A stretch of 64,000 bases of DNA from an uncultured Pelagibacteraceae bacterium (GTDB lineage Bacteria > Pseudomonadota > Alphaproteobacteria > Pelagibacterales > Pelagibacteraceae): the NCBI GenBank assembly GCA_902583585.1, contig CACHWN010000003.1:77585-141584 (forward strand), read 5' to 3'. Below are positions 42,497 to 46,875 of this stretch, one piece after another (the stretch's first letter is position 1; each line of letters starts with the position of its first letter). The notes under the pieces are model-generated. The model ran no database searches, had not been told where the DNA came from, and saw only the letters and a program-made list of their open reading frames with translations. The translations under genes and the position numbers were made by a program.

Positions 42497-42598
42497 CTAA
42501 CTTGAAATACCTATACGGGGACTGCATATTGAAAGTCAAATCAAATATTGAAAATAGGAACATTTGACAAATTGATTCGGTCATGTTTTAATCCTAGT

Positions 42599-45851: not shown

Positions 45852-46544
45852 ATGCTTAAAAAGAAAAAAGTAAAAAAAGTAAAAAAAGTTAAAAAAGTTA
45901 AAAAACTAAAAAAAAATAAAAATCTTAAGCAGATTGATAAATCGAAAAATATTTTAAAAAATGGAGAGAAAAAAAATGTGGCTTTAGGAGCTGACGAAAA
46001 GCCAGAGATTAAAAAAGTAAAAAAACAACCCACTGAAAAGAGAATTTACAACCTGAAAGATTATGTGGTCTATCCAAAACACGGTGTTGGGAAAATAACA
46101 GGAATAGAAAAAGCTAATATTGGAGAAATAGACATTCAATTTTACAAAATTTTAGTAGAAAAGGAAAAACTTACACTCACTGTACCAATTAACCAGCAAT
46201 CAAAATTAAGACCAATTGCTACAATAAATCAAATTAATAAATGTGTTTCAATTTTAAAAACAAAACCAAAAATTAAAAGAACTATGTGGAGTAGAAGAGC
46301 TCAAGAGTACGACCAAAAAATTAATTCAGGGAAAATTTATGATCTAGCAGAAGTAGTGAAAGACCTAAATAAAAATACAGATATAATAGCCGATCAATCC
46401 TACTCGGAAAGACAACTTTTTGAAAAAGCTTATGAAAGATTAAAATCAGAATTTGAAGCTGTTTTGAAAGTAAGTCCAGAGGAAGTTCAGAAAAAGATGG
46501 ATAAAGCTCTTGGAAGAGTAAAAATTTCGGAAGAAATCCAATAA
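45852..46544 (+). CDS. CarD-family transcription regulator with Lys-rich N-terminal tail
   Basis: 230 residues. The CarD/CdnL RNA-polymerase-interacting domain begins near residue 67 (KDYVVYPKHGVGKITGIE) and is followed by the helical DNA-binding part (MWSRRAQEYDQKINSGKIYD, then SYSERQLFEKAYERLKSE). CarD stabilises open promoter complexes, often at rRNA promoters. The first ~65 residues are unusual: KKV repeated four times then KKL, and further Lys-rich sequence, a probable disordered DNA-contacting tail. Last gene of helicase-terB-fdxA-carD. Confidence 0.9.
   Translation: MLKKKKVKKVKKVKKVKKLKKNKNLKQIDKSKNILKNGEKKNVALGADEKPEIKKVKKQPTEKRIYNLKDYVVYPKHGVGKITGIEKANIGEIDIQFYKILVEKEKLTLTVPINQQSKLRPIATINQINKCVSILKTKPKIKRTMWSRRAQEYDQKINSGKIYDLAEVVKDLNKNTDIIADQSYSERQLFEKAYERLKSEFEAVLKVSPEEVQKKMDKALGRVKISEEIQ
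45864..45908 (+). repeat. Five 9-base tandem repeats in the carD tail
   Basis: Five units of the form AAAAAAGTA/AAAAAAGTT (the last AAAAAACTA) encode Lys-Lys-Val x4 and Lys-Lys-Leu at residues 5-19 of the CarD protein. Because the unit is nine bases, copy-number change would lengthen or shorten the tail in frame. Confidence 0.8.
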
Positions 46545-46581
46545 AAAAACGCCCTCTTTAAAATTATAAAAAGGGCGTTTA
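46543..46581 (-). terminator. Rho-independent terminator (best for the minus strand)
   Basis: AAACGCCCT (46547-46555) pairs with AGGGCGTTT (46572-46580). On the minus strand the stem is followed by seven T, making a good terminator for the tiny basic gene at 46595. On the plus strand only TTTA follows, so carD is probably terminated less efficiently. Confidence 0.8.
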
Positions 46582-46594
46582 GTTAAAGAGAAAA

Positions 46595-46666
46595 CTATCT
46601 TCTTCTTCTTCTCTTTTTTGCTTTCTTTTTAGTTTTCTTTTTAGCTTTTTTTCTTCTTTTAGCCAT
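46595..46666 (-). CDS. 23-residue Lys/Arg micro-protein
   Basis: ATG at 46666-46664 to TAG at 46597-46595. The peptide begins MAKRRKKAKKKTKKKAKK and ends in five Arg; apart from Met, three Ala and one Thr, every residue is Lys or Arg. AAGGGAG (46672-46678) is five bases upstream, a clear Shine-Dalgarno, and an efficient terminator follows after 14 bases. So it looks like a complete single-gene transcription unit. Such a charge would bind nucleic acid (histone-H1-like tail) or rRNA; it also recalls very small ribosomal proteins, but no family match is obvious. Confidence 0.65.
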   Translation of the reverse strand: MAKRRKKAKKKTKKKAKKRRRRR

Positions 46667-46707
46667 CTTTTCTCCCTTGTTAGAAACAAATCTTAATGAT
46701 TCGTTTG

Positions 46708-46727
46708 TTAATTAATACATTAATTAA
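46708..46727. promoter_or_regulatory. Perfect palindrome upstream of the 23-residue gene
   Basis: TTAATTAAT and ATTAATTAA are separated by AC, giving a 20-base dyad 42 bases before the micro-gene's start codon. On the minus strand it contains a TGTATTAAT extended -10-like sequence. Simple A/T sequence can form palindromes by chance, so this is tentative. The rest of the 209-base gap to the acyl-CoA ligase shows nothing I can name. Confidence 0.3.
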
Positions 46728-46875
46728 TTAAGAATTCATGTCAAACATAAATTATTTTACAAATTTGATTCAGAATTTAAATTTTTAAATTATTTTTTTA
46801 GTTTTTATGAAAATTAAAAAAAGTTAGTAATATCAATGTTTTTTTAAGCAAATTAAATAAGTTATAATTTAATTT

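Follow-up and report, generated by a model that had tools for sequence, protein, structure and literature searches.

A very short reading frame that encodes almost nothing other than lysine and arginine faces carD in the genome of an uncultured Pelagibacteraceae bacterium (G000), and raises the question of whether so small a frame is a gene and, if it is, what its product would do and how its expression would be controlled. The frame lies within a window of 64,000 nt (contig CACHWN010000003.1), the whole stretch of DNA that was analysed here. The opposite, plus-strand frame at 46595–46666 reads as a Ser/Phe-rich string, and the strand of the peptide ORF must therefore be given: it is encoded on the minus strand, where translation from 46666 to 46595 yields 23 residues (MAKRRKKAKKKTKKKAKKRRRRR) with 11 Lys and 7 Arg, the same 18 Lys/Arg residues that the initial annotation had counted. 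The ribosome site AAGGGAG that it placed five bases ahead of the frame is also there, at 46678–46672, with AAAAG before the ATG. The parts of the unit and its neighbour are as follows.

45852–46544, plus strand: carD, the convergent neighbour (Pfam CarD_C and CarD_TRCF_RID)
46547–46580, minus strand: intrinsic terminator of the peptide gene; the palindrome also lies directly behind the convergent carD
46595–46666, minus strand: ORF of the 23-residue Lys/Arg peptide (ATG 46666–46664, stop TAG 46597–46595)
46672–46678, minus strand: Shine-Dalgarno sequence AAGGGAG, 5 nt (AAAAG) upstream of the ATG
46684–46706, minus strand: leader hairpin AAACGAATC-ATTAA-GATTTGTTT, 9 pairs with one G-U, near the predicted mRNA 5' end
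46697–46703, minus strand: CGAATCA, a GANTC site in the extended GcrA/CcrM form (TGATTCG on the opposite strand)
46717–46722, minus strand: likely -10 hexamer TAATGT, predicted from sequence (spacer 16, weak consensus match)
46739–46744, minus strand: -35 hexamer TTGACA, with CGAATCA ~40 nt downstream of its first base

The initial annotation did not describe the promoter, CGAATCA or the leader hairpin. Its description of an efficient Rho-independent terminator agrees with the fold, as the peptide unit ends at 46580–46547 in a stem of 14 pairs with a run of T behind it, and the 60-nt stretch that contains it has a folding energy of -20.8 kcal/mol (z -5.87), equalled by none of 200 shuffles. 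There is one terminator-like site on the minus strand here against a mean of 0.1 in shuffles, and such a site is present in 175 of 177 loci. An Rfam scan of the window returned only two tRNAs, with no match at the peptide locus. On the other side of the terminator, the CarD protein itself has a long Lys-rich N-terminal tail (45852–45950, plus strand; MLKKKKVKKVKKVKKVKKLKKNK...), which also occurs in the other Pelagibacteraceae sampled and is shorter in some other alphaproteobacteria.

Conservation beside carD and selection on the peptide

The initial annotation suggested looking for the peptide with its carD flank in other SAR11 genomes, and it was present at 49 of 49 carD-retrieved Pelagibacteraceae loci, the window's own included. 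These comprise 30 same-genus loci, fetched from 50 same-genus carD matches, and 19 further loci. The ribosome site and the ORF are intact in 44 of the 49, and in the other five a contig end truncates the locus, which leaves the frame complete in L326 and partial in the rest. Within the genus the ORF is complete in 28 of the 30 loci; in the remaining two (L004 and L014) the contig stops inside the ORF and an in-frame C-terminal part is visible. One further Pelagibacteraceae locus, L338 (G217), could not be judged and stands outside the 49. Additionally, a longer counterpart occupies the same slot in the same orientation in all 20 loci fetched, from 32 carD matches, for a second Pelagibacterales family (f2). 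Outside the Pelagibacterales, no Lys/Arg-rich ORF turned up next to carD in the 26 alphaproteobacterial loci inspected (L085–L110), which were among the best-scoring carD matches and not a random draw; the sequence downstream exceeded 1.4 kb in 22 of the 26 and was limited to 392 nt in L104, 124 nt in L085 and 2 nt in L090, and the carD end was not recognised in L107. It was also observed that several draft contigs (e.g., L004, L014, L325, L331) end within or just beside the peptide gene, and that the g7 orthologue L336 has an apparent GTG start in place of ATG in an otherwise complete unit.

Searches by pattern gave a similar distribution. A class-wide N-terminal DNA pattern, which overlooks divergent and long forms, matched 4 of 386 genomes, all among the five sampled Pelagibacteraceae. 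A scan of named genomes returned at least 120 stretches, and all 80 titles listed were SAR11, Pelagibacter, Pelagibacteraceae or Pelagibacterales. A strict pattern matched 60 of the 297 genomes of the order because variants such as MPKKRKKAA escape it. The single match in a viral collection (L232) proved on reading to be an unrelated longer protein, leaving no phage copy with that pattern.

Parsing of 178 loci by script produced 92 different ORF sequences at the DNA level and 61 different peptides with a conserved N-terminus, M-[AP]-K-[RK]-R-K-K. After the Met, these 61 peptides consist only of 793 Lys, 373 Arg, 254 Ala, 37 Thr, 13 Pro, 3 Gly and 1 Ser, in a set that omits the 36–38-residue g5 forms, which the script pattern did not catch, and the g8 forms, which were fetched after the composition count and also contain V. 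Codon changes were counted from codon 10 onward because the retrieval patterns had in many loci dictated the opening seven to nine codons. This gave 47 synonymous and 27 nonsynonymous changes, 24 of the latter exchanges between Lys and Arg, against ~22% synonymous expected if single bases in these ORFs changed at random. Same-length codon comparisons confined to carD-only loci gave six synonymous changes and six that were not (four between Lys and Arg), too few to weigh. From these sequence comparisons it is nearly certain that the ORF is a real coding gene under selection, held in a fixed slot convergent to carD. The stand-alone micro-gene of the initial annotation is upheld on both counts, by its retention beside carD in other SAR11 and by selection on its amino acids.

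The peptide did not match any curated family. Pfam and NCBIfam returned nothing for the window peptide, NCBIfam returned nothing for 10 members, and a Pfam search with five longer members (30–90 residues) returned one irrelevant match (E 8.5). A profile built from 10 members matched none of 177,635 distinct sequences of solved chains at E <=10, in a search with HMMER, which is weak on low complexity. The best-ranked results of a literature search, a body that covers few subscription papers, made no mention of the peptide. Because no curated model and no solved chain matched, membership of a known protein family is not claimed.

Promoter signature and leader hairpin

The carD-retrieved loci were collected without using the CGAATCA motif and provide an independent view of its conservation. 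CGAATCA is present in 42 of the 43 Pelagibacteraceae (f1) loci with upstream sequence, and wherever both elements occur (39 of 39 loci) it lies 39–41 nt after the start of TTGAC. The sole exception, L324, has CGAATCG in its place and TGATTCG as the other arm. All 20 f2 loci carry CGAATCA, 38–40 nt after the TTGAC start, such that the genes for the short and long forms have a common promoter signature (TTGAC, then CGAATCA). In a larger set that was partly retrieved by the motif, the distance is 39–42 nt in 160 of 160 measurable loci. The promoter pattern occurs in 43 of 51 relatives, and the eight without it are genomes where no carD was found; the backward control of the pattern in these relatives gave one match, and one extra match in G005 looks like chance. 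Across the family, 117 of 143 genomes have the pattern, and two overlapping matches in G220, where no carD was found, look like chance. Of the 26 genomes that lack it, 25 were checked by carD: no carD was found in 12, and 12 of the 13 with carD carry the peptide gene, some of them cut or with another leader, the thirteenth being G217 with its locus L338. In the remaining genome, G233, the ORF lies at a contig end (L065). The -10 of the peptide promoter matches the consensus poorly and varies between clades, and a consensus promoter scan of the window did not list this promoter.

At both f1 and f2 loci CGAATCA conforms to the extended GANTC form (TGATTCG or YGAKTCK). In Caulobacter, TGATTCG is described as the extended methylated motif for GcrA activation, and the same study reports that Brevundimonas has no preference for the extended motif (PMC7987155). 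One timed class of Caulobacter promoters has GANTC between the -35 and -10 (PMC4287350). In the peptide promoter the site is instead ~40 nt after the -35, past the predicted start. The SAR11 unit thus resembles the Caulobacter GcrA/CcrM promoters in its sigma-70-like -35, the extended motif TGATTCG/CGAATCA and the presence of GcrA in the clade, and differs from them in that the motif falls in the predicted first transcribed bases, usually within an RNA hairpin. SAR11 has a CcrM homologue, whose conservation pattern GcrA shares (PMC3973325), and in a culture of Pelagibacter NP1 3477 of 3482 GANTC sites were fully methylated, a mark linked to the cell cycle (PMC9516812). GcrA was found in 15 of 21 relatives and in 9 of 13 within the genus; none was seen in G000, the window's genome, which is 83% complete. 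With GcrA in relatives, a CcrM homologue and GANTC methylation in the clade, the machinery to read CGAATCA therefore exists there. GANTC is scarcer in the window (107 sites) than expected from simulations (184 +- 12 and 180 +- 13), which is weak evidence because similar pentamers range from 90 to 186. TGATTCG occurs at 10 places in G000, four of them inside the window, a count that was not used as evidence.

The CGAATCA motif opens or touches the leader hairpin. Of 106 distinct leaders, 105 form a stem with six or more pairs, as against 0.8% of shuffles, and the exception (L121) has a stem with one mismatch. The leader in the window folds at -7.0 kcal/mol (z -2.35), with 3 of 200 shuffles as good. 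CGAATCA is part of the stem in g1, the window's genus, and in g6 and f2. In g1 the DNA palindrome is broken and the RNA pairing is maintained through G-U, and in f2 an inner pair of the stem is exchanged from A-U to C-G. In g5, g7 and g8 the stem is built from other arms, and CGAATCA is kept with most of its bases free or differently paired. The hairpin starts a few bases from the expected mRNA 5' end, and 5'-terminal stem-loops protect and stabilise mRNAs in other bacteria.

Length series and candidate roles of the peptide

The forms found in the same slot have 19, 21–30, 31, 34–58 and 40–99 residues at a near-constant composition. The same-genus forms span only 21 to 25 residues, the single g10 locus encodes a peptide of 19, the g7 form has 31, and the g5 forms have 36 and 38 counted from a MAKRR start. 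Within the Pelagibacteraceae, the g8 forms (34 to 58 residues) begin as the short form does (MAKKRKKAAKKKAPAKKRK...) and have a histone-H1-like look, as do the f2 forms (40 to 99 residues, e.g., MEELKVIFAKARKKAKKKAAPKKKRKAAKRKPAKKK...) with their Lys/Ala/Pro repeat. The longer repeat proteins (34–99 residues) are taken as orthologues of the short peptide because of the same slot and the common promoter signature. A Lys-rich, Ala/Pro low-complexity composition is present in the f2 and g8 forms, and the window form consists of Lys, Arg, Ala and Thr, without Pro. The f2 and g8 orthologues look similar to AlgP of Pseudomonas and Hc2 of Chlamydia, which are Lys/Ala(/Pro)-rich, of low complexity and variable in size through repeat number; Hc2 ranges from 165 to 237 residues (PMC2848022) and the histone-H1-like AlgP sets the spacing of polyphosphate granules (PMC9239181). 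In contrast to both, the window peptide has 23 residues, an Arg-rich end, no Pro and no Pfam match, and the SAR11 gene has a GANTC motif in its promoter and a conserved position adjoining carD. The likeness to H1 is drawn from composition and from the longer orthologues, since no library or solved structure matched.

The explanation that we favour, on an even balance of confidence, is that the locus is a single-gene SAR11 unit for a minimal H1-like nucleic-acid binder, probably of the nucleoid, and plausibly timed in the cell cycle. The peptide would be unstructured and would bind nucleic acid through its charge, with the chromosome as the most likely target and an action of the H1-tail or protamine type. 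CcrM methylation and the sigma-70 cofactor GcrA may help or time transcription at CGAATCA, placed just after the predicted start site, and the hairpin near the 5' end may stabilise the short mRNA, by analogy with other bacteria. Against the timed, H1-like reading stand a G000 in which no GcrA was seen, a GANTC past the predicted start, the Brevundimonas result, the poor -10 of a promoter that the consensus scan passed over, and the CGAATCG of L324. The peptide would bind DNA, and it may be abundant and produced in step with the cell cycle. It is conceivable, if rather doubtful, that a protamine-like micro-protein is gated by replication-dependent CcrM/GcrA methylation of its promoter, with its charge supplied along with DNA synthesis and the carD run on the same switch. 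Such gating would resemble the eukaryotic S-phase histones, where chromosome-coating charge is likewise supplied in step with DNA synthesis.

Several other explanations compete for parts of this evidence. That CGAATCA and its hairpin act solely at the RNA level, in mRNA stability or the control of initiation, with the GANTC likeness a by-product and no role for GcrA/CcrM, is a serious contender, though we lean against it: the motif sits in the stem in g1, g6 and f2, the G-U pairing of g1 and the variable loops point to RNA, and the hairpin pattern has a single occurrence in G000, yet CGAATCA stays in g5, g7 and g8 where the hairpins use other arms. For the peptide itself, an association with the ribosome or RNA, neutralising or holding rRNA, appears unlikely. 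The small basic ribosomal proteins eL41, bS22 and bTHX are likewise short and very basic, and the narrow 21–25 residues of g1 and the kept N-terminus would suit such a role, but same-slot orthologues of 19 to 99 residues are ill-suited to a fixed ribosomal site, lack a fixed length and a profile match, and hit no solved chain at E <=10, in a search where HMMER is poor on low-complexity queries. A length that varies freely while composition stays nearly constant is less in keeping with a set place in the ribosome than with a disordered polycation that acts on the chromosome in the manner of H1 or protamine.

A polycation for another anion, either polyphosphate granules or the membrane, has the precedent of AlgP and its granule spacing (PMC9239181), and is improbable, with nothing in the data that speaks for it directly. 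Far less probable still is a transcript that is mainly a regulatory or structured RNA with an incidental ORF, which would account for a short transcript with hairpins at both ends but not for the synonymous bias, the replacement of Lys by Arg and the reverse, the kept ribosome site, lengths that change by whole codons, or the lack of an Rfam match; selection on the amino acids also speaks against the structured non-coding RNA that the initial annotation had considered in place of a protein. Its observation is confirmed and its interpretation partly supported: for the proposed micro-protein, nucleic-acid binding would follow naturally from the composition and from the H1-like counterparts in the same slot, whereas the suggested ribosome association is less supported given the drift in orthologue length.

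Significance and further extended GANTC sites

SAR11 bacteria combine a small cell with a small genome that encodes few regulators. A micro-gene found next to carD in all the Pelagibacterales sampled, and unmatched in the family libraries searched, is a promising candidate for a core part of the nucleoid and deserves annotation in Pelagibacterales genomes. The series from 19 to 99 residues shows how small an H1-like protein can become and yet be retained. Further, the near-invariant extended GANTC offers a concrete candidate target for GcrA/CcrM in a clade where a 2010 survey reports no ctrA in Pelagibacter (PMC2877005).

Extended sites also occur at other genes. A putative promoter on the plus strand at 42564–42592, TTGACA-AATTGATTCGGTCATGT-TTTAAT, has TGATTCG between the -35 and -10 and serves a helicase-like gene (42652) at the head of the run towards ferredoxin and carD. 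GATTCGG recurs at this promoter in all 18 Pelagibacteraceae loci fetched and TTGACA in 15 of the 18; the GANTC was not seen in the two f2 loci fetched. Elsewhere in G000 (contig C1), at about position 332 of L234, a TGATTCG immediately precedes the start of a gene (TGATTCGTTATGTCAG) that we take to be clpX-like.
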